IMG/VR virus record: IMGVR_UViG_3300021389_000154
Location: 1 to 24,303 of that record
Reading direction: 5' to 3' (one strand)
Origin: a virus
DNA: 24,303 nt
Translations under genes and position numbers: made by a program
The notes under the pieces: model-generated
Seen by the model: only the letters and a program-made list of their open reading frames with translations
Told to the model about the DNA's origin: nothing
Databases searched by the model: none
Shown: positions 190 through 21,867 of the stretch, piece after piece
How positions within the stretch are numbered: the first letter of the stretch is position 1
Layout of the letters: every line of letters begins with the position of its first letter

Positions 190-636
190 ATGGGATACAA
201 TAAACCAAATCCATTAAAAGCAATGGAGTCAGCTTTAAAAATGTATAAAGCCGAGAAAAAAGGTGGTATGCATAGAATGGAGTCACCTATGTACGCAGGT
301 CATTCACCTATGGAAATGTCAAGAGAATTAAAAGACATGCCAATAGTAGATATCGAAAAAGGTGATGCTAAAGGTTCACCAGCAATGGCTGCTAAGCCAG
401 ATTTTTTAGATTTAGATAAAGATGGTAATACTTCTGAGCCTATGAAAAATGCTGCTAAAGCTAAAGGTTCTCCAGCTAAAAAACAAGGTTACAACGATAG
501 ATTAGATGAAAGTTTAGCTAAAGACGGCAAAGAGTCTAGCAAAAAACAATCTATGAAAGATCGTAGAGACGAATCAAAAGGAATGGAAAAATCAAAAGGA
601 AAAGGAGCTTATTCTTCTGATCCAAAAATGAGCTAA
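190..636 (+). CDS. small Lys/Met/Ser-rich protein with a calcium-loop-like motif and SP motifs
   Basis: Function not recognised. The 148-residue product is rich in Lys, Met, Asp and Ser and probably largely unstructured. Residues 74-83 read DLDKDGNTSE, matching the DxDxDG start of an EF-hand or dockerin-type calcium loop, although position 12 of the loop is Met rather than Glu or Asp. Short motifs with Ser-Pro recur: ESPMY (31-35), HSPME (38-42) and two copies of AKGSPA (about 60-65 and 91-96). The C-terminal third (about 100-142) holds two similar charged units, RLDES and RRDES, and then GMEKSKGK. Similar proteins are, as far as I recall, frequent in uncultured marine phages. The start codon follows an A-rich leader with no Shine-Dalgarno sequence. 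The next gene begins 2 bases after the stop. Confidence 0.75.
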   Translation: MGYNKPNPLKAMESALKMYKAEKKGGMHRMESPMYAGHSPMEMSRELKDMPIVDIEKGDAKGSPAMAAKPDFLDLDKDGNTSEPMKNAAKAKGSPAKKQGYNDRLDESLAKDGKESSKKQSMKDRRDESKGMEKSKGKGAYSSDPKMS

Positions 637-638
637 AC

Positions 639-1304
639 ATGGGGCATAAAATTCATAAGCATATGAGTGGTGGAAAATCATCATCATCACCATTGAACCA
701 ACAAAGTGCTAGATACAGAGACCAAAGAGGCGGTAGCGTAATGAGTCAAGACTATAGAGACCCTAAAGTTACTGATGCGGAAATAAAAGCTAGAATACTT
801 GCAGAAAGAGAAGAAGCAAAGCTAATGGGCTTGACAGGTCTTAGAGGTGATCGATCAATGCTTGTAGATGAAGATAGTGGAACTATTACTTCACCAACAC
901 CAGGCGGATTAGGTGATCGTATAGCTTACATACCTAGCCAAGAATCTTTACCAGGTATTGATCCAGAGATTTATGAACTAGGAAGAGGAGCGGTTAAAGA
1001 TTCGTTAAGCTATGTTAATAGAGGTATGGGCGGTACGGCAGAAAGACTTTATGGAAAAGATTTAGCGAAAGATCTTAGAATGGCTACATCTCCAGATTCA
1101 TACGAAGCAACTTTAAGGTCAGCCGTAGAAGAAGGAGGAAAACCTGGTTTTGAAGGTGGTGCTTTTGAAGTAGATCCAGTTTCTGGGAAAAGAGGTTATA
1201 CTCCAAGAAACCTTCAAGATATACAATTTTCTCAAAGAATAACAGACAAAGAAAGAAGTTCGATACTTAAAGATATAATAAAAAGCAAACTATTTAATAA
1301 ATAA
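639..1304 (+). CDS. hypothetical protein, 221 residues, with N-terminal SPLNQ motif
   Basis: Function not recognised. The product starts with a His/Ser-rich stretch containing SPLNQQ at residues 17-22, the same kind of short motif found in neighbouring small proteins. A charged, probably helical part follows (about 47-60, AEIKARILAEREEAK). The rest is mixed Gly/Asp/Ser sequence ending in a basic helix (KDIIKSKLFNK). No signal peptide, membrane segment or catalytic motif is visible. The gene starts 2 bases after the stop of the gene before it and ends 4 bases before the next start, so it is almost certainly co-translated with both. A virion or assembly role is inferred only from position between fibre-like and packaging genes. 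Confidence 0.7.
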   Translation: MGHKIHKHMSGGKSSSSPLNQQSARYRDQRGGSVMSQDYRDPKVTDAEIKARILAEREEAKLMGLTGLRGDRSMLVDEDSGTITSPTPGGLGDRIAYIPSQESLPGIDPEIYELGRGAVKDSLSYVNRGMGGTAERLYGKDLAKDLRMATSPDSYEATLRSAVEEGGKPGFEGGAFEVDPVSGKRGYTPRNLQDIQFSQRITDKERSSILKDIIKSKLFNK

Positions 1305-1308
1305 TAAA

Positions 1309-1932
1309 ATGGGAAGAGGATACAGTGGAAATCACCCTCGCTATTCAGGCGAGAAATACGATGCTAAAGAAGCATACAACAAAGATCTAACAGCTTCTGC
1401 TAGATTACACTACTTAGAAAACGACAGACATGATCACGATTCACCTCATCACATGAGTGTTAATCAAAGACTTGATGATTCTTTTGGTATGGGACAAAAC
1501 ACAGGTTCTGCTCCATCACCAATGAATAAACATTGTAAAAGTCATTCACCTGTTAATAACAGAGCTGGGAAATTAAGAGAAAAAGCTGCTAAAATATCTA
1601 GCAAAACTGAAGGACAAGGCGGTTATGATTACGAAAGTCCTAAAGTACAAAAACTTTTAAGCAAAGCTAGAAAAGTAGACGAAAGAAGTGGAATGAAATC
1701 TAGAGATGAAAGATCTGGAGAACTAAGAGGTAGAGAAATGGATGATATGATGGATAATAGACCAGATAGTCCTTTCAATGCTTGTGCTAAAGACGAAGGT
1801 GGAAGTGGTTGTATCCAAAAAATGGGTGGAGCATGGAGAGTAATTAGTAATAAAACAGATAAACCTTGGCCAGCAAAATACGGAAGCAAATCAAAAGCTG
1901 AAGCTGCTTTAAGAGGTTATCACGCAGGATAA
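1309..1932 (+). CDS. hypothetical protein with SP motifs and a small C-terminal domain
   Basis: Function not recognised. The 207-residue protein has a His/Asp/Tyr-rich N-terminal third (HYLENDRHDHDSPHH at about 34-48, then NQRLDDSFGM) that resembles the RLDES unit of the protein encoded at 190-636. Three Ser-Pro motifs follow: SPMNK (70-74), SPVNN (80-84) and SPFN (154-157). The middle is a charged, low-complexity Arg/Glu/Asp stretch. The last 45 residues look like a compact domain: two cysteines, then WRVISNKTDKPWPAKYGS and AEAALRGYHAG, a pattern I recall from small marine-phage proteins but cannot name. The gene starts 4 bases after the previous stop, with an AT-rich leader. Confidence 0.72.
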   Translation: MGRGYSGNHPRYSGEKYDAKEAYNKDLTASARLHYLENDRHDHDSPHHMSVNQRLDDSFGMGQNTGSAPSPMNKHCKSHSPVNNRAGKLREKAAKISSKTEGQGGYDYESPKVQKLLSKARKVDERSGMKSRDERSGELRGREMDDMMDNRPDSPFNACAKDEGGSGCIQKMGGAWRVISNKTDKPWPAKYGSKSKAEAALRGYHAG

Positions 1933-1933
1933 T

Positions 1934-2218
1934 ATGGATATACTAGGTAAAATTAGATCAAGTTTTTCAAATAAAAACGGTTTTAAAATAGGTTTTTCAA
2001 ACAGATCTCCTTTAAACCAGTATAAAAGCACCATGCCAACTAATTTTAATTTACCTAAGTTAAATGCTGACGTTGGTGTTGGACAAAATATAGTTTCTGG
2101 CGACAAAGCTTTGAGCGACGCTAATTTACAAGAATCAGAATTTATCGGAAAGTCAATACAAGGTGCTGTTAAAGAAATTAGTGACGCTGTTGTAAAAAAG
2201 AAAAAAAATGGAAGCTAA
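1934..2218 (+). CDS. hypothetical protein, 94 residues, with SPLNQ motif
   Basis: Function not recognised. The product is 94 residues long and begins with a basic, amphipathic N-terminus (MDILGKIRSSFSNKN). SPLNQ occurs at residues 25-29, the fullest match to the motif shared with neighbouring proteins. The C-terminal half could form a helix ending in a Lys run. There is no signal peptide or membrane segment. The start lies one base past the previous stop and the end overlaps the next start by 11 bases, so translation is probably coupled. Confidence 0.65.
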   Translation: MDILGKIRSSFSNKNGFKIGFSNRSPLNQYKSTMPTNFNLPKLNADVGVGQNIVSGDKALSDANLQESEFIGKSIQGAVKEISDAVVKKKKNGS

Positions 2219-2369
2219 AGGGTTAGGAGATAGTATAGCAAATTTTACTAAAAAAACTGGTATTAATTCAGCAGTGCAAGCAGTGTCTAAAGCAATGGGT
2301 AAACCTTGTGGTTGTGCTAAAAGACAACAGATATTAAACGAAAAGTTTCCATATAAAAATTCAAAATAG
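2208..2369 (+). CDS. 53-residue protein with CGC-KRQ-LN-FPY motif
   Basis: This short gene starts at an ATG preceded by a run of eight A residues inside the end of the previous gene (11-base overlap) and stops at a TAG at 2367-2369, one base before the next ATG. The product has a helical N-terminal half and then CGCAKRQQILNEKFPYK (residues 34-50). I recall the pattern Cys-Gly-x-Cys, Lys-Arg-Gln, Leu-Asn, Phe-Pro-Tyr from very short proteins in many tailed phages, with no function known to me. The two cysteines could bind a metal or form a disulfide, but with only two an intermolecular site would be needed. It is believed real because the frame fills the gap exactly between coupled genes and carries a recognisable motif. 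Confidence 0.72.
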   Translation: MEAKGLGDSIANFTKKTGINSAVQAVSKAMGKPCGCAKRQQILNEKFPYKNSK

Positions 2370-2370
2370 T

Positions 2371-2712
2371 ATGTTTAGATTAAAAAATAAATTTACTATA
2401 GAATCACCATTTAAACAAGATAATACACCTATTTATAATACAAGTCTTGAAGATGGAGTTTTAGGTAAAGCAAATAATAACGGTACAATTTTAGTATCAG
2501 ATAAAATAACTGATTCAGAAGAAAGACAAAGCGTTATTGATCATGAAAAAGTTCATTTAGATCAAATGAAAAGAGGTGACTTAGATTATGATGATGAAAA
2601 TGTATACTGGAAAGGTAAAACATATTCTAGAGAAGATATGCAAGAAGGTGCAGAAAACTTACCATGGGAAAAAGAAGCGTATAATAAAACAGATCCATTT
2701 AAAAAATATTAA
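2371..2712 (+). CDS. small HExxH metallopeptidase-like protein
   Basis: The 113-residue product carries HEKVH at residues 58-62, the HExxH zinc site of gluzincin-type metallopeptidases, in a helix-like context (VIDHEKVHLDQMKRGD). A downstream glutamate in LPWEKEAY (E100 or E102) is placed where a third zinc ligand would be expected in minimal peptidase families. The N-terminus has ESPFKQ (11-16), related to the SP motif of neighbouring proteins. No signal peptide is visible, so it would act in the infected cell or in the virion. A role in trimming virion proteins or in lysis is possible, but only the motif supports an enzyme; it could also be a zinc-binding structural protein. The gene starts one base after the preceding stop. 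Confidence 0.72.
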   Translation: MFRLKNKFTIESPFKQDNTPIYNTSLEDGVLGKANNNGTILVSDKITDSEERQSVIDHEKVHLDQMKRGDLDYDDENVYWKGKTYSREDMQEGAENLPWEKEAYNKTDPFKKY

Positions 2713-2720
2713 TATTTAAT

Positions 2721-3173
2721 ATGTCAAAAAAATTTAAAGACACTAAAGTAGGTAAATTTCTATCTAACGCAGCTCCTGGAATTTTAAATACAGTAGGTGA
2801 TGTATTACCTGATAATGGTGTTATGGGTTTAGTAAAAAATCTTATACATAAAGAACCGGCTTTACCGCCAGAAGATAAAGAAAAAGCTTTATTATTATTG
2901 CAGCAAGATATAGTTGAAATGCAAGAAATAAGTAAACGTTGGTCAAGCGACATGACGTCAGATTCTTGGTTAAGTAAAAATACTCGACCAATGACACTTA
3001 TATTTTTAACTGTGTCTTTAATTATTTTAATAGTTTTAGACAGTGGTAATATAGGTTTTGGAGTTAATGATACTTGGGTAGATTTATTAAAATCTTTGCT
3101 TATAACAGTTTATGTAGCTTATTTTGGTTCACGAGGGGTGGAAAAATTCAAAAAAATGGGTAATAATAAATAA
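2721..3173 (+). CDS. holin-like membrane protein (GTA_holin_3TM-like)
   Basis: The product (150 residues) probably inserts in the host inner membrane and forms lesions that start lysis. The N-terminal part is soluble, with a helix rich in Lys, Glu and Gln (about 52-73). SDSWLSKNTRPMTLIFLTV (80-98) follows and leads into a first membrane segment at about 90-107; a second lies at about 119-136 and ends YFGSRGVEKFKK. The SDSWLSKxxRP and YFGSRGxEK signatures are what I remember of the phage holin family first described for gene transfer agent release. Two membrane segments are clear; a third, weaker one could lie near residues 15-40. No endolysin gene is recognised next to it. It follows the metallopeptidase-like gene by 8 bases. 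Confidence 0.72.
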   Translation: MSKKFKDTKVGKFLSNAAPGILNTVGDVLPDNGVMGLVKNLIHKEPALPPEDKEKALLLLQQDIVEMQEISKRWSSDMTSDSWLSKNTRPMTLIFLTVSLIILIVLDSGNIGFGVNDTWVDLLKSLLITVYVAYFGSRGVEKFKKMGNNK

Positions 3174-3201: not shown

Positions 3202-3561
3202 ATGAAAAATTTATTATTAAGTGCGTTAATGCTGTTTAGTATTAGCATCCAAAGCCAAGACTTTGGTGACAAATTAAAAGGAGTTTGGTCAAGCGAACAA
3301 ACAAGTTATTATGTAGTAATATTACACGATAAACAAAAGTATGAGTTTACTAATTTTTCCTTTGAAGAAAATAACGTATTGCAAGAGACTTTTGTAGAAG
3401 AAGGTAAAGATTACGTTAAAACAAAAATTCACAATCCTAAAAATAATTGGGAAGTATTTATAACTTACAAGTATGTAAATAAAAATACTTTAACAGCTAA
3501 GTTTGAAGGATCTATTAATCAAACGTCTTTTTATAAAAGACACTGGGTTATGACAAATTAA
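3202..3561 (+). CDS. small secreted protein with N-terminal signal peptide
   Basis: The first 20 or so residues (MKNLLLSALMLFSISIQSQ) form a typical Sec signal peptide: a Lys, a hydrophobic core, and a polar Gln/Ser-rich end like those in flavobacterial secreted proteins. There is no lipobox cysteine, so cleavage by signal peptidase I is expected near residues 17-21. The remaining 98 residues alternate polar and hydrophobic residues with many Tyr, Phe and Trp, suggesting a small beta-barrel or lipocalin-like fold; this is inference from composition. In a phage, such a protein would act in the host periplasm, for instance in lysis or superinfection exclusion. Its place directly after the holin favours a cell-envelope role. 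Specific function not recognised. Confidence 0.72.
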   Translation: MKNLLLSALMLFSISIQSQDFGDKLKGVWSSEQTSYYVVILHDKQKYEFTNFSFEENNVLQETFVEEGKDYVKTKIHNPKNNWEVFITYKYVNKNTLTAKFEGSINQTSFYKRHWVMTN

Positions 3562-3814: not shown

Positions 3815-4034
3815 TGTAGTTAGAAAAATCAGCATTGGTTCTGATTATAAAAATGACGCAATGCATTATTCTGTAGGTCAACAAGTTTATGGTGGGCATG
3901 AAATATCTCATATATTATTAGATGAAAAAGATAATTCATATAACATACATATAAAGAAAAACAACGAGGTATTGCCATGGAAGAAATTTAATTCTAACAT
4001 GGCTATATCTATAGAATATGATTTAGAATATTAA
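3807..4034 (+). CDS. hypothetical protein, 75 residues
   Basis: Function not recognised. The product looks like a small beta-rich domain: YSVGQQVYGGHEISHILLD, then a strand YNIHIKK, then VLPWKKF and a final strand ISIEYDLEY. From memory, similarly built short proteins occur next to terminase genes in marine Bacteroidota phages. The start overlaps the preceding gene by 8 bases and the TAA shares one base with the ATG of the next gene, the tight packing expected of real genes in one transcript. A shadow ORF on the opposite strand covers part of the same region and was discarded. Confidence 0.65.
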   Translation: MNNVVRKISIGSDYKNDAMHYSVGQQVYGGHEISHILLDEKDNSYNIHIKKNNEVLPWKKFNSNMAISIEYDLEY

Positions 4035-4639
4035 TGAATAGTTTATATGATTTTATTATAGAACCTATAGGTGATAGGTATGATAATAAAAAAACAGTAG
4101 GTGGTAAAGATTTAATACTTAATACAAAAATTGAATCTTGGAAATTTGTTAATAGATTAGCAAAAGTTGTAGCAGTGCCAATAGCATTAAAAACCCCTAT
4201 AAAAAAAGGCGATACTATAGTTGTTCACCAAAATATATTTAGAAGATTTTACAATATGAAAGGTGAGCAAAGCAACAGTAGGTCTTATTTTAAAGATAAT
4301 ATGTATTTTGCTGCTATTGATCAAATATATTTATACAAACACGACACAGAGTGGTTGTCTTTTGGAGATAGATGCTTTGTAATGCCTATTAAAAATTCTA
4401 ACGATCTAATAAACAGAAAAGAAGATCCTAGTATTGGAGTGCTTAAAATTAGTAATAATAAACTAGAGGCATCTAATATTAAACCAGGAGACACTATAGG
4501 TTTTGTTCCAGGTGCTGAATGGGAATTTATTGTAGACGATCAACGTCTTTATTGTATGAAATCAAATGATATTGTAATTAAATATGGAAATCAAGAAAAC
4601 CAAAAAGAGTATAATCCAAGCTGGGCAAGTAGCAGTTGA
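4034..4639 (+). CDS. tandem GroES-like (co-chaperonin) protein
   Basis: The product (201 residues) appears to contain two GroES-fold units. Unit 1 (about 5-100) reads FIIEPIGDRYDNKKTVGGKD at its start, a flexible Gly-containing stretch like the GroES mobile loop, then PIKKGDTIVV (55-64), the counterpart of the GroES V-x-x-GD-x-V-x-F strand. Unit 2 (about 111-187) repeats the plan: CFVMPI, IGVLKIS, IKPGDTIGFVPG (149-160), and RLYCMKSNDIVIKYG, which resembles the closing 'yliMreSDIlAi' strand of GroES. Phage co-chaperonins such as T4 gp31 replace host GroES so that GroEL can fold the capsid protein. Position just before the packaging and capsid genes fits that role. The call rests on motif resemblance, and the duplication is unusual compared with the roughly 100-residue cellular GroES. 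Confidence 0.62.
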   Translation: MNSLYDFIIEPIGDRYDNKKTVGGKDLILNTKIESWKFVNRLAKVVAVPIALKTPIKKGDTIVVHQNIFRRFYNMKGEQSNSRSYFKDNMYFAAIDQIYLYKHDTEWLSFGDRCFVMPIKNSNDLINRKEDPSIGVLKISNNKLEASNIKPGDTIGFVPGAEWEFIVDDQRLYCMKSNDIVIKYGNQENQKEYNPSWASSS

Positions 4640-4862
4640 AGAATTAATTAAAGTAGCCAAAGAACCTATTGTTGATTCTGATGATGATATATCTGCTGAC
4701 AGACTTAAAAATGCCGCAGCAACAAAAAAGTTAGCTATATTTGATGCATTTGAAATTTTAAATAGAATACAAGAAGAGGAAGATATAATTGAAGGCAAAG
4801 TAGAAAATGAAACCAAAAAACCTAGAGAGTTTAAAGGTTTTGCTGAAGGAAGATCTAAGTAA
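4584..4862 (+). CDS. probable terminase small subunit or terminase-associated protein
   Basis: The 92-residue product is predicted all-helical: IIQAGQVAVEELIKVAKE (about 10-27), then DRLKNAAATKKLAIFDAFEILNRIQEEEDII (about 40-70), and a charged tail. No helix-turn-helix motif can be named with confidence. The call comes from size, helicity and position directly before the large terminase, where small terminase subunits usually lie; these bind the packaging site and hand DNA to the motor. The start overlaps the GroES-like gene by 56 bases in another frame; no later ATG in this frame keeps the first helix, so this start is preferred. The stop TAA shares one base with the ATG of the large terminase. 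Confidence 0.55.
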   Translation: MEIKKTKKSIIQAGQVAVEELIKVAKEPIVDSDDDISADRLKNAAATKKLAIFDAFEILNRIQEEEDIIEGKVENETKKPREFKGFAEGRSK

Positions 4863-7075
4863 TGTACGAGCAAACTTTATATAAAATACTAGACGATCAT
4901 ATAAAACCTAAGATAATAAAACAATTAAATAGGTATAAAAAATGGGAGTATGGTTATAACGCAGAACATGATATTATTGTTATTTCAAAGACTGGTAAAA
5001 TAGGTGAAATATACGATATTCAAGGACTTAAAATAGCATTGCCTTTAGAAGAAAACGTTCATAAGTTTAAAGAAAACAAATGGACAGTTTTTGAATATCC
5101 TAAAGTTTTAAAGAAAATAAAAACAGTATTCGACTGGAGAGAATATCCAGAGGATTTTAAAGAACAATGGTATGAATATATTAACGAAGAATTTAGAAGG
5201 CGTGAAGAAGGTTTCTGGTATATTAATAAGGATAAACCTACTTATATTACTGGTAATCACTACATGTACTTGCAGTGGAGTAAGATTGATGTTGGGCAAC
5301 CAGACTTTCGAGAGGCAAACCGTCTCTTTTTCATATTCTGGACCGCAGTACACGCCGACGCACGGTGCTATGGTATGTGCTATCTCAAGAATAGACGTTC
5401 AGGCTTTTCGTTTATGGCATCCGGAGTTACGGTGGATATGGCGACCATATCAAGCGACTCACGTTTTGGGATATTGTCCAAATCTGGCGCCGACGCTAAG
5501 AAGATGTTCACCGATAAGGTTGTACCAATATCCGTTAATTACCCCTTCTTTTTCAAACCGATCCAGGACGGTATGGACCGCCCAAAGACCGAACTCGCGT
5601 ACAGAGTCCCAGCGTCCAAGTTCACAAGAAGATCGATTGTATCGACCGAGCAAACCGAGGATCTCACCGGGTTGGACACCACAATCGACTGGAAGAACAC
5701 AGGGGACAATGCCTACGATGGAGAGAAACTCAGGCTCCTCGTCCACGATGAATCGGGCAAATGGGAGCGCCCGAACAACATCCAGAACAACTGGCGTGTT
5801 ACGAAAACCACCCTTAGATTAGGTAGTAGAATTATCGGTAAGTGTATGATGGGATCAACATCAAATGCTTTAGATAAAGGAGGTGCAAATTTTAAAAAAT
5901 TATTTTATGACTCAGATGTCACAAAAAGAAATGCAAATGGACAGACACGTTCAGGGCTCTATTCTTTGTTCATTCCTATGGAATGGAATTACGAAGGATA
6001 CATTGATTCTTACGGCCATCCTGTCTTCGACACACCAAAAGATCTTGTTAAAGGTCCTCACGGAACACCAATCACGACTGGAGTTATTGAGTATTGGCAA
6101 AACGAAGTCGATGGTTTAAAACAAGATCAAGATGCTTTAAATGAATTTTATAGACAATTTCCAAGAACTGAAGAACACGCCTTTAGAGATGAGGCTAAAT
6201 CTTCTTTGTTTAATTTAACTAAAATATATGAACAAATAGATTGGAATGCAGATATAAAAAGATCATCTGTTATAACACAAGGAAGTTTTCAATGGTCAGG
6301 AGGTATTAAAGATACTACAGTTATATTTGTACCAAATAAAAATGGAAGATTTTTTATTTCTTGGGTTCCACCTAAAAGATTACAAAACAATGTAATAAAT
6401 AAGTTAGGCAACAAATATCCTGGAAATGAAACTTTAGGAGCATTTGGTTGTGATAGTTATGATATCTCAGGTACAGTAGACGGTAGAGGTTCTAATGGAG
6501 CTTTACATGGTTTAACTAAATTTAGTATGGAAGATGTACCTCCAAATCATTTCTTTTTAGAATATATCGCTCGTCCACAAACAGCTGAGATATTTTTTGA
6601 AGATGTGCTTATGGCTTGTATTTTTTATGGTATGCCTATACTTGCAGAAAACAATAAACCTAGATTACTGTATCATTTTAAACGTAGAGGTTATAGAAAT
6701 TTTGCAATGAATAGACCTGATAAAGTTTATAACAAACTATCTGTTACAGAAAGAGAAATAGGTGGTATACCTAACTCTAGTCAAGATATAATACAAGCGC
6801 ATGCAGCTGCAATAGAAAGTTATGTTGAAAGTTATGTTGGACTTAGAGATGATAATACATACGGAGATACATATTTCCAAAGAACATTAGAAGACTGGGC
6901 TAAATTTAATATAAACAATAGAACAACACATGATGCTTCTATTAGTTCTGGTTTAGCGATTATGGCTTGTAATAAAAATAAATATAGACCTGTTCCTAAA
7001 ATGATAAGAAAAAATTATGATTTAGGAATAAAAAAATTTGATAATAGTGGGTTATTATCTAAAATTATAGATTAA
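4862..7075 (+). CDS. terL: terminase large subunit (packaging ATPase and nuclease)
   Basis: This enzyme pumps DNA into the procapsid using ATP and cuts the concatemer. The 737-residue length is typical of a two-domain large terminase. The ATPase domain has a deviant Walker A, KNRRSGFSF (176-184), with Lys early and none in the usual GKS/T place, a variant known in several phage terminases. Walker B with catalytic Glu is LRLLVHDESG (290-299, D296, E297). A coupling motif GSTSN lies at 331-335. The RNase H-like nuclease domain shows FGCDSYD (528-534, D531), acidic residues near 580-596, and HDASISSGLAIMA (690-702, D691). Residues 142-319 are encoded by DNA of much higher GC and contrasting codon use, and 361-417 by a milder tract; the reading frame is unbroken throughout. 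The portal gene follows directly. Confidence 0.92.
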   Translation: MYEQTLYKILDDHIKPKIIKQLNRYKKWEYGYNAEHDIIVISKTGKIGEIYDIQGLKIALPLEENVHKFKENKWTVFEYPKVLKKIKTVFDWREYPEDFKEQWYEYINEEFRRREEGFWYINKDKPTYITGNHYMYLQWSKIDVGQPDFREANRLFFIFWTAVHADARCYGMCYLKNRRSGFSFMASGVTVDMATISSDSRFGILSKSGADAKKMFTDKVVPISVNYPFFFKPIQDGMDRPKTELAYRVPASKFTRRSIVSTEQTEDLTGLDTTIDWKNTGDNAYDGEKLRLLVHDESGKWERPNNIQNNWRVTKTTLRLGSRIIGKCMMGSTSNALDKGGANFKKLFYDSDVTKRNANGQTRSGLYSLFIPMEWNYEGYIDSYGHPVFDTPKDLVKGPHGTPITTGVIEYWQNEVDGLKQDQDALNEFYRQFPRTEEHAFRDEAKSSLFNLTKIYEQIDWNADIKRSSVITQGSFQWSGGIKDTTVIFVPNKNGRFFISWVPPKRLQNNVINKLGNKYPGNETLGAFGCDSYDISGTVDGRGSNGALHGLTKFSMEDVPPNHFFLEYIARPQTAEIFFEDVLMACIFYGMPILAENNKPRLLYHFKRRGYRNFAMNRPDKVYNKLSVTEREIGGIPNSSQDIIQAHAAAIESYVESYVGLRDDNTYGDTYFQRTLEDWAKFNINNRTTHDASISSGLAIMACNKNKYRPVPKMIRKNYDLGIKKFDNSGLLSKIID
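5287..5818 (+). other. GC-rich, codon-shifted tract inside terL (ATPase core)
   Basis: By hand count, bases 5341-5820 hold 244 G or C of 480 (about 51%), against 16 of 60 in 5101-5160 and 16 of 60 in 5881-5940. All ten Leu codons from residue 142 to 318 are CTC, CTT or TTG and none is TTA, although TTA dominates Leu elsewhere in the window. ACC, GAC, TCC, CGC and CTC abound. Both edges are sharp, near ATTGATGTTGGG and ACCCTTAGATTAGG, and the frame is intact. The tract encodes Walker A through Walker B of the packaging ATPase. This most likely marks recombination from a higher-GC relative; a metagenome assembly chimera is the main alternative. Confidence 0.85.
5941..6113 (+). other. second, milder composition shift inside terL
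   Basis: Bases 5941-6120 hold about 75 G or C of 180 by hand count (about 42%), between the AT-rich surroundings and the strong tract upstream. Leu codons here are CTC, TTG and CTT until a TTA at the end, and C-ending codons (TAC, GTC, TTC, GAC, GGC, ATC) are frequent. An AT-rich stretch of roughly 100 bases separates it from the first tract. The encoded residues, about 361-417, lie between the ATPase and nuclease domains. It suggests mosaic exchange in patches rather than one clean block. Confidence 0.6.
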
Positions 7076-9478
7076 ATGAGAAAAGTATATACTAACGGTA
7101 ATAGCATTTTTCCTAGCCAAGTGGTTAGCGACGCTGAGAAAGCATCTTGGGAATATGGTGAGCAAGTTGCTCAAGCTATAGAACAAGAATGGTTTAATCA
7201 AGGAAGAACAAATGGTAATAGATACCTAACTACATGGAATAATTATAATAGACTTAGATTATATGCTAGAGGTGAACAACCTACTCAAAAATATAAAGAC
7301 GAATTATCTATTAATGGTGATTTATCTTATCTTAATTTAGACTGGAAACCAGTACCTATTATATCTAAGTTTGTAGATATATTATCAAATGGTATTTCTA
7401 ATAAAGATTATGATATAAACGCTTTTGCACAAGATCCTGCTTCAATACAAAAAAGAACCAGTTATGCTGAATTACTAGCACAAGATATTTTTGCAAGAGA
7501 CACAATGAAACAAATAACAGCTCAACTAGGTAAAGAGCTGTATAATACAAACGTACCTGAAGATCAATTACCACAGACTCCAGAAGAGTTAGAGCTTCAC
7601 ATGCAATTAACTTACAAGCAGTCTGTAGAAATAGCAGAAGAAGAAGTTATAAACCAAGTTTTAGATTACAATAAATGGGATTTAACAAGACGTAGAGTAA
7701 ATTATGATTTAGTTACGTGTGGTATTGGAGCTGTTAAAACAGATTTTAATTTATCTAACGGTATAACAATTGATTACGTAGATCCAGCTTATTTAATATA
7801 TTCTTACACAGAAGATCCAAACTTCGAAGATATATATTATGTAGGCGAATTAAAAGCGCAAACATTACCAGAAATAGCGAAGCAATTCCCAACACTTGAT
7901 GACAATACTTTAGAGAGAATACAAGAATATCAAGGCAGTCAAGAAAGTAAGTATGGTTTTGGCCAAGGTGCTTGGGATTCAAATACAATTCCTTTATTAT
8001 ATTTTGAATATAAAACATATAGTAACCAAGTTTTTAAAATAAAAGAAACTGATAGTGGTTTGTTAAAAGCTATAGAAAAACCAGATAGTTTTAATCCACC
8101 AGAAAATGATAATTTTGAGAGAGTAGGTAGAACAATAGAGGTTTTATATAGAGGTGTTAAAGTTTTAGGTACAAATATATTATTAAGATGGGAATTATGT
8201 CCTAATATGACTAGACCTTTTGCTGACACTACAAAAGTAGAAATGAACTACGCAATATGTGCTCCTAGAATATACAAAGGTCGTATTGATTCTACAGTTG
8301 GTAGAATAACTGGTTTTGCAGATATGATTCAAATAACTCATCTTAAACTACAACAAGTAATAGCTAGAATGGTACCAGATGGTGTGTTCTTAGATATGGA
8401 TGGTTTAGCAGAAGTTGATTTAGGCAATGGAACAAACTACAACCCAGCAGAAGCATTGAATATGTATTTTCAAACAGGTTCTGTTGTAGGTAGATCACTT
8501 ACTCAAGATGGTGAATTAAATAGAGGTAAAGTACCTGTTCAAGAGTTAACTACAGGATCTGGTCAAGCTAAAATACAAAGTTTAATATCTACGTATAATT
8601 ATTATTTACAAATGATACGTGATGTAACCGGACTTAATGAAGCTAGAGATGGTAGTACACCAGATAAAAGTACTTTAGTTGGTCTACAAAAGTTAGCAGC
8701 ACAAGCTTCAAATATAGCTACAAAACATATTAACAACGCTAGTTTATATTTAACATTGAGAATATGTGAAAATATATCTAAAAAAGTTAACGATATGTTA
8801 GATTATCCTTTAACTGCTAATGTATTAAAACAAAGTATATCTGTATTTAATACTGAAACATTAAAAGGTTTAGAACAGATTAATTTACATGACTTTGGTA
8901 TATTCTTAGATCTTGAACCAGATGAAGAAGAAAAAGCAATGTTAGAACAAAACATACAAGTTGCTTTATCAAGTGGTGGTATTGATTTAGAAGATGCCAT
9001 AGAAATACGTCAAATACGTAATTTAAAGCTTGCTAACCAAATGCTGAAAATGAAACGTAAACGTAAGTTACAACGTGAAAGACAAATGCAAGCTGAAATG
9101 TCTCAAAACCAAGCACAAGCAAACGCACAAGCTAGTCAAGCAGCTGCTGAAGCTGAAGTACAAAAACAACAAGCTTTAACGTCTGAAAAAGTAAACTTTG
9201 AACAAGCAAAGTCTCAGTTTGAAATACAACGAATGCAAGCAGAGGCTGAAATAAAAAGACAACTAATGTCAGAAGAGTTTAATTATCAAGTTCAATTAGA
9301 ACAAATGAAAACTCAAAGAGAAACTAAACGTGAACAACAAATAGAAGATCGTAAAGACAAAAGAACAAGAATAGCAGGTACACAACAAAGTGCTATGATA
9401 TCTCAGAGACAAAATGATTTATTACCTACTGATTTTGAAAAACAAGGACAAATGGAAGATCAGTTTCCAATTGTTTAA
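7076..9478 (+). CDS. portal protein
   Basis: The portal forms the dodecameric ring at the capsid vertex through which DNA enters and leaves and to which terminase and neck bind. The call rests on position directly after terL, on an 800-residue length that fits large podoviral and crAss-like portals, and on the alpha/beta body (about 60-600) followed by a long C-terminal helix-rich part. Recognisable body segments include LDWKPVPIISKFVDILSNG (about 90-108) and IRDVTGLNEARDGSTPDKST (about 514-533), the latter like the 'xxxTGxNxxxxG' stem region of other portals. From about 655 to 770 there is a Gln/Lys/Arg/Glu-rich coiled coil comparable to the barrel extension of P22-like portals. The ATG immediately follows the terL stop. 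Confidence 0.85.
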   Translation: MRKVYTNGNSIFPSQVVSDAEKASWEYGEQVAQAIEQEWFNQGRTNGNRYLTTWNNYNRLRLYARGEQPTQKYKDELSINGDLSYLNLDWKPVPIISKFVDILSNGISNKDYDINAFAQDPASIQKRTSYAELLAQDIFARDTMKQITAQLGKELYNTNVPEDQLPQTPEELELHMQLTYKQSVEIAEEEVINQVLDYNKWDLTRRRVNYDLVTCGIGAVKTDFNLSNGITIDYVDPAYLIYSYTEDPNFEDIYYVGELKAQTLPEIAKQFPTLDDNTLERIQEYQGSQESKYGFGQGAWDSNTIPLLYFEYKTYSNQVFKIKETDSGLLKAIEKPDSFNPPENDNFERVGRTIEVLYRGVKVLGTNILLRWELCPNMTRPFADTTKVEMNYAICAPRIYKGRIDSTVGRITGFADMIQITHLKLQQVIARMVPDGVFLDMDGLAEVDLGNGTNYNPAEALNMYFQTGSVVGRSLTQDGELNRGKVPVQELTTGSGQAKIQSLISTYNYYLQMIRDVTGLNEARDGSTPDKSTLVGLQKLAAQASNIATKHINNASLYLTLRICENISKKVNDMLDYPLTANVLKQSISVFNTETLKGLEQINLHDFGIFLDLEPDEEEKAMLEQNIQVALSSGGIDLEDAIEIRQIRNLKLANQMLKMKRKRKLQRERQMQAEMSQNQAQANAQASQAAAEAEVQKQQALTSEKVNFEQAKSQFEIQRMQAEAEIKRQLMSEEFNYQVQLEQMKTQRETKREQQIEDRKDKRTRIAGTQQSAMISQRQNDLLPTDFEKQGQMEDQFPIV

Positions 9479-9486
9479 TTATTAAT

Positions 9487-9511
9487 TATTTAATTATATT
9501 ATATTATGGCT
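9487..9511 (+). repeat. 25-base leader repeat, copy 1 (start of scaffold gene)
   Basis: A perfect 25-base match to 12197-12221 that runs from the A/T-only leader through the ATG and into the second codon (ATGGCT). The leader part is TATTTAATTATATTATATT. It may be a shared promoter -7/-10 region or a translation enhancer, since Bacteroidota genes use A/T-rich leaders instead of a Shine-Dalgarno site. Low sequence complexity weakens the case, but the exact register with the start codon in both copies is notable. Confidence 0.55.
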
Positions 9512-10672
9512 GAAGAAGCAAAAGAACCTGTAAAACAGGAGGGTGACTTTAAAATAAAGTCAAAACCAAAAAGTAAAAAACCAAAACAACTAACTAAATC
9601 TGATAAAGAAGTAGCAAAAATTGATTTATCTAAACCAGAAGCACAAGGCGAAATACAACCCGCTGTTGCTAAAATGGATTTAACTAAAGAACCAGAAAAA
9701 GTTGTAGAAAAAAAACCGGTTGTTGAAATTAAAGAAGAAACTTTACCAGAAACTAAAGAAGAATCTTTTACTGAAGTTATTGAAGAAGTAGCTGAAAAAG
9801 TTGAAACTACTCCAATACAGAAAAAAGAACCTTTAATTGAAACTCCTAAATTACCAGAAAACATTGAAAAACTGGTTAAGTTTATGGAAGATACAGGCGG
9901 TACAGTATCTGATTACGTAGAACTAAATAGAGATTATAGTTCTTTAGATGATAAACAGGTATTACAAGAATATTATAAAAAAACTAAACCACATCTAGAC
10001 AGTGAAGATATAGGTCTATTATTAGAAGATTATCAATACGATGAAGATTTAGATGAGGCAAAAGATATACGAAGAAAAAAACTAGCTTATAAAGAAGCTG
10101 TTGCTCACGCTAAAAATGATCTAGCTAAATTAAAGGATCAATACTATGCTGAGATAAAAAACAGACCTGGAGCTAATCCAGAACAGCAAAAAGCTACAGA
10201 TTTTTTTAATCGTTACAACAAACAGCAAGAAACTATAAAGCAGTCACAGGAAATTTTCCAAAAACGTACTAATGATTTGTTCGGATCAGAATTCAAAGGT
10301 TTTGATTATTCTGTAGGAGACAAAAATTTTAGATACAAGGTAAAAGACCCAAGACGTGTTGCTGAAGCTCAAGGTAATATTGAAAACTTTGTCAATAAAT
10401 TTATTGATAATAATGGAAATATTTCTGATACAGCTGGTTATCACAAAGCTTTATATGCTGCGATGAATGCGGACAAGCTAGCTTCTCATTTTTATGAGCA
10501 AGGTAAAGCAGATGGTGTTAAAACTATCGTTAAACAATCGAAAAATCCGGCTACAGACACACCAAGGCAGGTTGCTACTGGAGATGTTTTTGTGGGTGGA
10601 ATGAAGGTAAAGTCTATTAGTGGATCTGATTCATCAAAATTGAAAATAAAAAAACGAACATTTAACAATTAA
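9506..10672 (+). CDS. probable capsid scaffolding protein
   Basis: Scaffolding proteins guide capsid assembly and leave or are cleaved before maturation. The gene lies between portal and major capsid protein, the classic scaffold position. The 388-residue product has a Lys/Glu/Pro-rich, probably disordered N-terminal third (1-115) with the near-repeats KIDLSKPE and KMDLTKEPE, a helical middle (about 118-255; LVKFMEDTGGTVSDYVELN and EYYKKTKPHLDSEDIGLLLEDYQ), and a strongly basic C-terminal end KLKIKKRTFNN, reminiscent of the basic coat-binding tail of P22 scaffold. No catalytic motif is visible. The start lies in a 25-base leader repeated upstream of the gene at 12216. An antisense ORF over the N-terminal part is a by-product of the Lys/Glu bias. 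Confidence 0.65.
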   Translation: MAEEAKEPVKQEGDFKIKSKPKSKKPKQLTKSDKEVAKIDLSKPEAQGEIQPAVAKMDLTKEPEKVVEKKPVVEIKEETLPETKEESFTEVIEEVAEKVETTPIQKKEPLIETPKLPENIEKLVKFMEDTGGTVSDYVELNRDYSSLDDKQVLQEYYKKTKPHLDSEDIGLLLEDYQYDEDLDEAKDIRRKKLAYKEAVAHAKNDLAKLKDQYYAEIKNRPGANPEQQKATDFFNRYNKQQETIKQSQEIFQKRTNDLFGSEFKGFDYSVGDKNFRYKVKDPRRVAEAQGNIENFVNKFIDNNGNISDTAGYHKALYAAMNADKLASHFYEQGKADGVKTIVKQSKNPATDTPRQVATGDVFVGGMKVKSISGSDSSKLKIKKRTFNN

Positions 10673-10684
10673 AATTTAGAAAAA

Positions 10685-12136
10685 ATGGCTTTAAACCCAC
10701 AATTTGGTACTATAATACCAAGTCAACAACAAGAGCTTTTACAATCTAACTATTTACAGTGGACAGATGCTGGAGCTGCTAACTTTGCAGATTTTGCACA
10801 GCAGTATTTACCAGAAATCTACGAAGCTGAAGTTGAAAGATATGGTAACAGAACCTTATCTGGATTCTTAAGAATGGTTGGAGCAGAGCTTCCAATGACA
10901 AGTGACCAAGTAATCTGGTCTGAACAAAATAGATTACATATTGCATATGATGTACCAGCTGCTAACGTAGTTGCAGGACCTCCAACAGTATTAACACTGC
11001 CAGGAACTGTAACAAATGTTGTATCAGCTAGAGCTACAGTAGTTATCTTAGATAACTTTGGTGCTGAAGCAAAATGTTTAGTAGTAGCTTCTACACCTGG
11101 TGTAGGTGGTACTATAACAGTTGAACCTTACACGTCTACTTGGGCTGCTGCTGGATTAGTAGGAGATCTTAAAATATTCGTATACGGTTCTGAATATGCT
11201 AAAGGATCAGTTACTTTAAACAGTAACGGTGGTGCTTCTACATTAGCGAACAATGAGTACGTAAGTGTTGAGCCTGCTTTCACACAATTTAGTAATAACC
11301 CTATCATTATCAGAAACAAATACACAGTAAATGGATCTGATACAGCTCAAATCGGCTGGGTAGAAGTTGCTACTGAAGATGGAACTGGTGGATACCTTTG
11401 GTATTTAAAATCTGAATCTGAAACAAGATTAAGATTTGAAGATTACCTAGAAATGATGTGTGTTGAATCAGAAGTTACAGCAGCAGGTTCTGCAGTTGCT
11501 TTAGGTGCTTCAGGCGCTATAGGTTCTCAAGGTTTATTTGCAGCTATCGAAGATAGAGGTAATGTACAAGTTGGATTCTCTGCTGCTACAGGTATTGGAG
11601 ATTTTGATGGTATCCTTAGAAACTTAGATACACAAGGTGCAATTGAAGAAAACATGTTATTCTTAGACAGATCTACGGCTCTTGACTTTGATGATATGCT
11701 TGCAGGAATTTCTGCAGGATTCAACGGTGGTACTGCATTTGGATTATTTGAAAACTCAGAAGAAATGGCTTTAAACTTAGGTTTCAGTGGTTTCAGAAGA
11801 GGTTCTTATGACTTCTACAAAACTGATTGGAAATACTTAAACGACGCTTCAACGCGTGGTGGTATGACTGGACCTCAGTCTATTGAAGGAGTATTAATTC
11901 CTGCAGGAACAACAACTGTTTACGATCAAATTTTAGGAACTAACATCAGAAGACCTTTCTTACACGTAAGATATAGAGCTTCACAAACTGATGATAGAAG
12001 AATGAAATCATGGTTAACAGGTTCTGTTGGTGGTGCATTTACTTCAACTCTTGACGCTATGGAAGTTAACTTCCTATCTGAAAGATGTTTAGTAACTCAA
12101 GCTGCTAACAACTTTGTATTATTCAAAGGAGTGTAA
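10685..12136 (+). CDS. major capsid protein
   Basis: This is the shell protein, presumably of HK97 fold. Support: position after portal and scaffold, 483-residue length, a helical N-terminus (about 25-60, FADFAQQYLPEIYEAEVERYGNRTLSGFLRMVG) followed by beta-rich sequence with many Ala, Gly, Thr and Val, and a strong terminator right after it. A beta-rich stretch at about 90-170, including Gly-rich turns, may be an inserted surface domain. Codon choice is more C-ending (TTC, ATC, AAC) and a little higher in GC than in neighbours, as expected for the most highly expressed virion gene. The leader is AATTTAGAAAAA, A-rich with no Shine-Dalgarno site, which suits strong initiation in Bacteroidota. 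crAss-like affinity is likely from gene order but untested. Confidence 0.85.
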   Translation: MALNPQFGTIIPSQQQELLQSNYLQWTDAGAANFADFAQQYLPEIYEAEVERYGNRTLSGFLRMVGAELPMTSDQVIWSEQNRLHIAYDVPAANVVAGPPTVLTLPGTVTNVVSARATVVILDNFGAEAKCLVVASTPGVGGTITVEPYTSTWAAAGLVGDLKIFVYGSEYAKGSVTLNSNGGASTLANNEYVSVEPAFTQFSNNPIIIRNKYTVNGSDTAQIGWVEVATEDGTGGYLWYLKSESETRLRFEDYLEMMCVESEVTAAGSAVALGASGAIGSQGLFAAIEDRGNVQVGFSAATGIGDFDGILRNLDTQGAIEENMLFLDRSTALDFDDMLAGISAGFNGGTAFGLFENSEEMALNLGFSGFRRGSYDFYKTDWKYLNDASTRGGMTGPQSIEGVLIPAGTTTVYDQILGTNIRRPFLHVRYRASQTDDRRMKSWLTGSVGGAFTSTLDAMEVNFLSERCLVTQAANNFVLFKGV

Positions 12137-21459: not shown

Positions 21460-21867
21460 ATGAAATTAAATTCAAGATCATTAACTGAAAGTGACTGGTC
21501 GTTGCTTGAAAGTTGGTGGAAAGACTGGGGTTGGCCAGTTTTAAGTAAAGACATATTGCCTGACAACGGAACAGGTGGTATAATGATAGAGCATGATAAA
21601 AAACCTATAGCTGCAGGATTTATATACTGGAGTAACTCGGGTATGTGTTGGTTAGACTGGGTGATATCTGATCACAAAGGAAATAAAAGAGCTAGACCTT
21701 TAGCGGTAAAACTATTAATAGAAACCGCAGAAGCTATGGTAAAAGCAGCTGGTAAAAAATGCTTAATGTCAATAAGCAGAAGTAACAGTTTGTTAAAAAT
21801 ACATGAAAAATTAGGATGGACTATAGATAAGACACCATCTCACGAAATGATAAAAAGATTAATTTAA
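21460..21867 (+). CDS. GNAT-type N-acetyltransferase-like protein
   Basis: The 135-residue product has the GNAT strand-helix plan: GGIMIEHDKKPIAAGFIYW (39-57) as strands 2-3, MCWLDWVISD (62-71) as strand 4, a helix LAVKLLIETAEAMVKAAG (81-98), strand CLMSIS, and HEKLGWTID (115-123), the usual [Y/H]EKLGF/W signature of motif B. The acetyl-CoA loop is not canonical: NKRARPLA (75-82) replaces Q/R-x-x-G-x-G/A, so activity or donor may differ. GNAT-like genes among tail genes are, as I recall, common in marine phages, perhaps modifying a virion or host protein. It starts 6 bases after the tail gene and is clearly in the same transcript. Confidence 0.72.
   Translation: MKLNSRSLTESDWSLLESWWKDWGWPVLSKDILPDNGTGGIMIEHDKKPIAAGFIYWSNSGMCWLDWVISDHKGNKRARPLAVKLLIETAEAMVKAAGKKCLMSISRSNSLLKIHEKLGWTIDKTPSHEMIKRLI

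Follow-up and report, generated by a model that had tools for sequence, protein, structure and literature searches.

A Ser-Pro motif in consecutive small genes of a virus genome and the putative N-terminal tag behind it

Ser-Pro motifs in the first genes of the window

The window analysed here is the IMG/VR virus record IMGVR_UViG_3300021389_000154 in its whole length of 24,303 bases. Twenty-four of its genes were analysed, namely six at positions 190-2712, in which short motifs beginning with Ser-Pro (SP) recur, and the other 18. Comparison with relatives links these motifs to a longer N-terminal tag. The six genes are as follows (aa, amino acids).

Gene 1, 190..636, + strand: 148 aa, lysine-rich; SPMY, SPME, two KGSPA repeats and an acidic DLDKDGNTSEP loop
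Gene 2, 639..1304, + strand: 221 aa; SPLNQ at residue 17
Gene 3, 1309..1932, + strand: 207 aa; SPMNK, SPVNN and SPFNA
Gene 4, 1934..2218, + strand: 94 aa; tag-like FKIGFSNRSPLNQ at residue 17
Gene 5, 2208..2369, + strand: 53 aa GLGDSI..CGC protein without SP; phrog_32048, E 4e-4
Gene 6, 2371..2712, + strand: 113 aa zincin-like protein with HExxH; tag-like FTIESPFKQ at residue 8

All SP motifs listed in the initial annotation were recovered in frame when the window was read again: SPMYA (283-297) and SPMEM (304-318) in gene 1, SPLNQ (687-701) in gene 2, SPMNK (1516-1530), SPVNN (1546-1560) and SPFNA (1768-1782) in gene 3, SPLNQ (2006-2020) in gene 4 and SPFKQ (2404-2418) in gene 6. The run of SP genes is not unbroken, gene 5 lying inside it without the motif. 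Enrichment was assessed by 5,000 shuffles within each protein, with a pattern that had been picked after the data were seen. SP[MLVF][NK][QKN] occurs five times in the six genes, compared with a shuffle mean of 0.02, and SP[MLVF] eight times (mean 0.63); neither count was reached in any of the 5,000 shuffles. In the other 18 genes the longer form is absent (mean 0.10) and the shorter one is found six times (mean 3.98, p 0.21). This confirms that the SP motif in the window genes is non-random. As a description of a common motif the longer pattern was only partly apt: SPMY, SPME and SPFNA do not match it.

The predicted enrichment was also borne out in relatives. In 80 loci fetched with the HExxH gene (80 of 577 relatives), the same pattern occurs within the first 40 residues in 7 of 121 protein families (0.62 after shuffling), of which by our own reading four are families of the window's own genes and three are others. 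Conservation of the motif in homologues is uneven. The SP of gene 4 is retained in 7/7 non-redundant homologues; SPVNN is nearly private to the window, SPME is poorly conserved, and at the SP site of the HExxH protein 88 homologues match the window with an identity of 0.15 for S and 0.36 for P. Gene 2 has only two non-redundant homologues in the loci.

A longer, modular N-terminal tag

In the relatives, the SP piece belongs to a longer N-terminal tag (some 9-12 residues) and makes up its tail. The tag reads approximately F-K-[MIL]-K-x-(S/A)-P-[MLF], is clearest as "MAFKMKGSPM..." and in some cases has a second SP-x-[KN]-Q piece after it. Unlike proteins from the HExxH-gene loci start with MAFKINSPL, MPFKMKGSPLN, MAYIQHDSPFLK and similar sequences. 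On this comparison, the SP motifs of the window look like a worn version of the modular tag.

A scan of IMG/VR with a DNA pattern coding for M-[AP]-F-K-M-K-x-[S-like]-P retrieved 84 stretches, in which 89/89 matches lie in frames of at least 35 codons (five run off the locus), and many of them read MAFKMKGSPMQRNFGIG..SPIKQ. The second half, SP-[IVM]-K-Q, is the piece noticed in the window; it follows within the next 30 residues in 17 of 93 tagged proteins, with 0.75 expected. As a control, the same DNA pattern gave 26 matches in 257 Gb of cellular genomes, five of them in frames of at least 60 codons and none of these five with S-P. In three of the five (L174, L178 and L190) FKMK is followed by T-P, which the family-level pattern would accept; L178 and L193 are chance cases of long frames in bacteria. 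Since the DNA pattern opens with ATG and so favours gene starts, the N-terminal position was judged on unselected loci, fetched by other proteins. There, 3,259 distinct proteins contain 16 matches of FK[MIL]K.{0,2}[SAFT]P, each beginning within the first 20 residues, compared with 0.7 matches anywhere and 0.1 in the first 40 residues after shuffling.

For a count of bearers, the proteins of loci L001-L080 and L088-L169 were clustered on residues 31 onwards, so that the tag could not join them. In these loci, about half of which were motif-chosen, 48 of 369 families are tagged in the first 40 residues (shuffle mean 0.045). The 80 HExxH-fetched loci alone gave the strict tag in 4/121 families (expected 0.03) and a looser form in 10/121 (0.41). 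The 48 tagged families are more basic, with a net charge per residue of 0.076 compared with 0.020 in 305 other families no longer than 400 aa, and more disorder-prone by composition; with a median length of 139 aa, compared with 111 aa, they are not smaller than their neighbours. As far as sequence can tell, many of the tagged late proteins of this clade share no detectable similarity apart from the tag.

Codon usage and position speak for selection at the protein level. Within the tag, Ser is written with all six codons and Pro and Gly with all four. Some proteins have the tag displaced, beginning at residue 6, 16 or 18, and it is therefore not tied to the start codon. Diverse codons and displaced tags together argue that it is not merely a nucleotide element or a start-codon effect, and we rejected such an effect as the main cause. 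The alignments further indicate that the tag is modular, proteins of two domain types bearing it here and lacking it in other phages. DUF5872-type proteins read MA-FKMKGSPLQ-VRKTKEGAALKRWFKEDW in the clade and MA-VRKTAKGAKLKQWFKEDW in roseophage CRP-7, and DUF6321-type proteins MA-YIQSDSPFNK-LRKTTKGKG in the clade and MA-IRRTTKGKK in pelagiphage HTVC028P. Proteins of these types in Methylophilales phage Venkman, HTVC023P and CRP-7 are likewise without the tag, as is the DUF5872-type protein of L293, a locus of the untagged sister group. Pfam was run on the tagged proteins of L144 and L054, and the other DUF5872/DUF6321-type proteins were placed by alignment. The untagged small basic proteins thus share their domains with tagged ones by alignment, and in CRP-7, Venkman and S-TIP28 they lie directly upstream of the terminase gene; they differ in lacking FKMK..SP (S-TIP28 was read as sequence only, outside the alignment). 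Small basic proteins of DUF5872, DUF6321 or phrog_7595 type, some assigned by eye, also occur upstream of the terminase gene in L082, L293, L196, L363 and L364, which are otherwise different phages. Full-text literature searches for the tag letters and related ideas found no description of it, subscription papers and bioRxiv being mostly outside their coverage, and a search for DUF5872/DUF6321 gave a single paper, on an algal virus.

Late-gene islands and the clade of tag bearers

In the window, the late-gene island ends with a holin gene, and genes for a GroES-like protein and the structural module lie further on:

Holin, 2721..3173, + strand: phrog_3427, E 2e-17; closes the late-gene island in the window
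GroES-like protein, 4034..4639, + strand: phrog_13932; anchor used for fetching relatives
Terminase large subunit, 4862..7075, + strand: phrog_6681, E 4e-158
Portal protein, 7076..9478, + strand: E 2e-144
Scaffold-like protein, 9506..10672, + strand: named from its helical make-up and its place between the portal and the capsid-type protein
Probable major capsid protein, 10685..12136, + strand: virion structural protein phrog_13704, E 1e-87; named from its position

In 15 tag-chosen records, the pattern ATGNNNTTYAARMTNAAR matched 53 times and its reversed control not once. All 53 matches lie on the terminase strand, and 46 of them no more than about 13 kb upstream of the terminase gene by our own count from the listed positions, including four in G005 that are upstream only if the record ends count as joined. 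Some of the matches coincide with HExxH gene starts, and one, in G005, falls within that gene. The remaining seven are downstream of the terminase gene; in five records read downstream, six of these seven fall in a second island behind a giant late gene, where more tag-like starts are found. The phrog_6681 terminase and the HExxH family are each present in 15/15 of these records. The tag is placed in late-gene islands adjoining structural genes.

The giant late proteins have a motif of their own. Those of L368 (713-8794), L369 (268-8034), L370 (37-3288) and L372 (102-5288), and also those of L107 and L117, share QQ[AKR]SPLG[RK][YLI], with 851 to 2,693 aa seen and some cut by the locus end; in the giant protein of L371 this segment was not seen. 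The L368 giant also carries SPLFKQ and APLFKK, resembling the adjoining small tagged protein MAFKMKLKSPLFQK.

Terminase relatives in phage collections comprised 87 records (68 Flavobacterium, 15 Cellulophaga, 2 Tenacibaculum, 1 Maribacter and 1 genome from Manatee Spring), the closest being the Manatee Spring genome at 62%; the records read belong, wherever a genus or family is stated, to Elemovirus, Pervagoviridae and Pachyviridae. Judged by the terminase, the tagged phages probably infect Bacteroidota, and sequence relationships place the tag bearers in one clade of tailed phages, terminase-related to Flavobacterium and Cellulophaga phages. In a terminase tree of 63 rows, made by a quick method with a midpoint root for drawing only, 27/27 HExxH-positive rows fall in one clade of 35 (support 99), and the sister group of 24 has none. 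Five of the eight HExxH-negative rows within the clade show just 5-8 short genes, so that the island is out of view. L199, L058 and L068 had been scored HExxH-negative and encode the gene according to tblastn, having been missed probably through distance or an open reading frame finder restricted to ATG. Nine of the 24 sister rows show at least 20 short genes upstream and the rest fewer, which makes the absence of HExxH less sure there. A loose tag pattern was found in 23/35 rows of the clade and in 3/28 outside it (L334, L361 and L084, none of them tag-like).

HExxH gene and tag also go together by locus. Another loosely tagged protein is present in 35/54 HExxH-positive and 8/55 HExxH-negative loci (Fisher p 7e-8), and in 10/18 and 4/51, respectively, when only A1, A2 and phage-record loci are compared (p 8e-5). 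Both traits sit in one terminase clade and therefore reflect few independent events, so this co-occurrence was downgraded as independent evidence.

Possible functions of the tag

The idea of a shared docking or processing signal, put forward from the window alone, was the right kind of explanation for a motif that is non-random, apparently modular and selected at the protein level, and placed in late-gene islands by structural genes; what had been seen is only the tail of the signal, whose core is F-K-[MIL]-K before S-P. The reading we favour, with confidence about evenly balanced, is an assembly- or capsid-targeting tag working like the capsid targeting sequence (CTS) of T4, and we infer packaging here. 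The tag would dock late proteins on a common head-assembly partner, most likely the scaffold-like core or the capsid protein, and would thereby bring them into the particle, from which they would be delivered together with the DNA, as with the T4 CTS. The HExxH protein would be one cargo and possibly also a tag-trimming enzyme.

In T4, small basic internal proteins bear the CTS at their N-terminus, and this short peptide has affinity for the head core (PMC9026906). As on IPI, IPII and IPIII, a short N-terminal peptide is common here to otherwise unlike basic late proteins, as seen in the 48/369 families, the 16 unselected matches and the modular alignments. Bearers are more numerous here; the likeness of the tag to the T4 peptide is meant as an analogy, and membership in the T4 family is not claimed. 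A search for Peptidase_S77 (gp21-type) gave 0/15 in the tag-chosen records, but its controls gave no match either.

Two further systems invite comparison. Polyvalent proteins of phages include HExxH/zincin metallopeptidase domains that may process or accompany packaged proteins (PMC5512222). Here, in contrast, the HExxH protein and the tagged proteins are each encoded by a short gene of their own and are not joined as effector domains of one polypeptide. The Bacteroides phage phi-crAss001 stores virus-coded proteins in its particle (gp45, gp46 and RNA-polymerase proteins); this cargo differs in being few and large, with no shared tag described in the sections seen (PMC10172136). The terminase relatives of the window, moreover, belong to Elemovirus, Pervagoviridae and Pachyviridae.

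As to a partner, 13 window genes were examined as families, including terminase, portal, capsid, tail, holin and GroES-like ones, and only the scaffold-like family has tag matches. Four of the 94 tagged proteins belong to it, as do four of the 16 matches from unselected loci. Its members have a conserved N-terminal EG[DE]FK[ILV]K (EGDFKIK in the window) and a C-terminal SKLKIK; in a structure model with a mean predicted local distance difference test (pLDDT) score of only 63, both tag-like ends lie in low-confidence tails around a helical middle. FK[MILV]K occurs near the N-terminus in 24/39 proteins downstream of the portal gene. This resemblance is no more than suggestive of the scaffold-like protein as a possible partner of the tag.

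Several observations weigh against a packaging tag, or against its reach. Thirty-seven of the 48 tagged families consist of one sequence each, which makes 48 the most that unrelated bearers can number, and window genes 1-3 match only the SP part of the tag. L002, a near-identical relative of the window, has no tagged protein beyond the HExxH one by the loose N-terminal pattern. The scaffold-tag resemblance is just a few residues long, and the protein downstream of the portal lacks FK[MILV]K in the tag-chosen loci L124, L155 and L160. A tagged cultured phage was not found among 6 of the 87 terminase-related records, read at locus positions 11,000-27,000, and small basic proteins annotated as structural in the matching Cellulophaga island (Calle, phi38:1) showed no homologue among the tagged phages. 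A tblastn search of phages with the HExxH protein returned six remote records and no tagged phage; a 24-residue tag peptide, in a weak search, and the DNA of one island had no match at all.

More tentatively, and in our estimate rather doubtful, the tag could be a clade-wide protein-sorting code, in which FKMK-x-SP acts as a detachable N-terminal address that any small protein can gain. The head scaffold or core would recognise this address, and a dedicated HExxH peptidase would trim it. The virion would then act as a carrier into which a rapidly changing set of injected proteins can be plugged. Should the tag load proteins, many phage genes without a name could be listed as predicted virion cargo from their first ten residues, and what such phages inject besides DNA would become testable by sequence search and proteomics. 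The capsid-targeting code of T4 would then have a counterpart, the second natural code of its kind, in phages probably of Bacteroidota, and the tag would be a candidate for a short address with which chosen proteins could be brought into phage heads.

We rank the rivals to a packaging tag in the order protease site, chaperonin or other late docking site, and neutral cassette. That the tag is a processing site, cut at or near its own position during assembly by the HExxH metallopeptidase of the island or another protease, appears unlikely to us, although the gene distribution points that way: besides its presence in all 15 tag-chosen records, the HExxH gene is found in 0/36 A2-group loci, and a Peptidase_S78 prohead protease was found in 0/15 records by a search whose control was positive in 4/14 genomes. 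Phage zincins have, moreover, been proposed to process packaged proteins (PMC5512222). The count of 0/36 is weakened by several A2 loci that show only few genes upstream, and the confinement of tag and enzyme to one clade applies here too. The conserved core of the tag mostly begins at residue 3, so that a cut there would remove little, and within the HExxH family itself the S and P are mostly not conserved.

The HExxH protein is a putative peptidase. The homologues aligned are stand-alone proteins of 102-145 aa, and H58, E59, H62 and E100 are invariant in 20 of them, as is the tag Phe F8, four residues before the S. A small zincin-like core with helices 49-68 and 98-106 is predicted in the model (mean pLDDT 84), the HExxH lying on one helix and the downstream glutamate E100, a putative metal ligand, on the second; the tag-bearing N-terminus is of low confidence. 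The nearest solved folds are IrrE/PprI (best Z 6.4), followed by abylysin, ArdC and a DNA-protein-crosslink protease entry, all with Z < 8, and Foldseek gave a best E of 0.15 in PDB and better scores with viral models (E 6.6e-12). The protein may be cargo, a tag-trimming enzyme or both.

Somewhat less probable still is docking to a late factor that is not part of the head, such as phage GroEL/GroES or the tail or lysis machinery. GroEL-like and GroES-like genes occur in the same island in relatives, but the untagged relatives MW202828 and elemo also encode GroEL and GroES, and the second tagged island, behind the giant late gene, is distant from GroEL. The disorder-prone composition of the tagged proteins also speaks against a chaperonin or other late docking site. 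We think it improbable that the tag has no binding role and is a spreading N-terminal cassette or translation-start sequence. Its Phe and Lys codons are indeed more AT-rich than the loci average (TTT 70/72, AAA 138/148), but its serines use both the TCN and the AGY class, some proteins carry the tag 6-18 residues in from the start, and the SP repeats of genes 1 and 3 are internal. Chance or composition, that is, a short motif arising in lysine- and serine-rich proteins, several of them of low complexity, with a pattern chosen after looking, has next to no credence, being contradicted by the shuffles of the same proteins and the cellular-genome control, on which it was rejected.

Some further features of the window were recorded. 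Gene 1 had no match in Pfam or NCBIfam; its acidic DLDKDGNTSEP loop looks like an EF-hand or dockerin loop. A second recurrent motif, R[LR]D[ED]SxGM-like (RLDES, RRDESKGM, RLDDSFGM), is found in genes 1 and 3 (190-636 and 1309-1932) and in L014, L015 and L101, in the same low-complexity proteins and beside the DLDKDGNTSEP loop of gene 1. The small GLGDSI..TKATGI..CGC protein of gene 5 (2208-2369; L082 12748-12918) is kept in tagged and untagged relatives, with 94 homologues, and none of those displayed is tagged. PADLOC had no match on the window, and the only NCBIfam match among the window genes was GldD_lipoprot, far under the cut-off (E 0.002), for a small secreted-looking protein at 3202-3561, between holin and terminase. 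Within the structural module, the gene at 21460-21867 (phrog_17252, without assigned function) matches in position the N-terminal acetyltransferase subunit annotated in MW202828.

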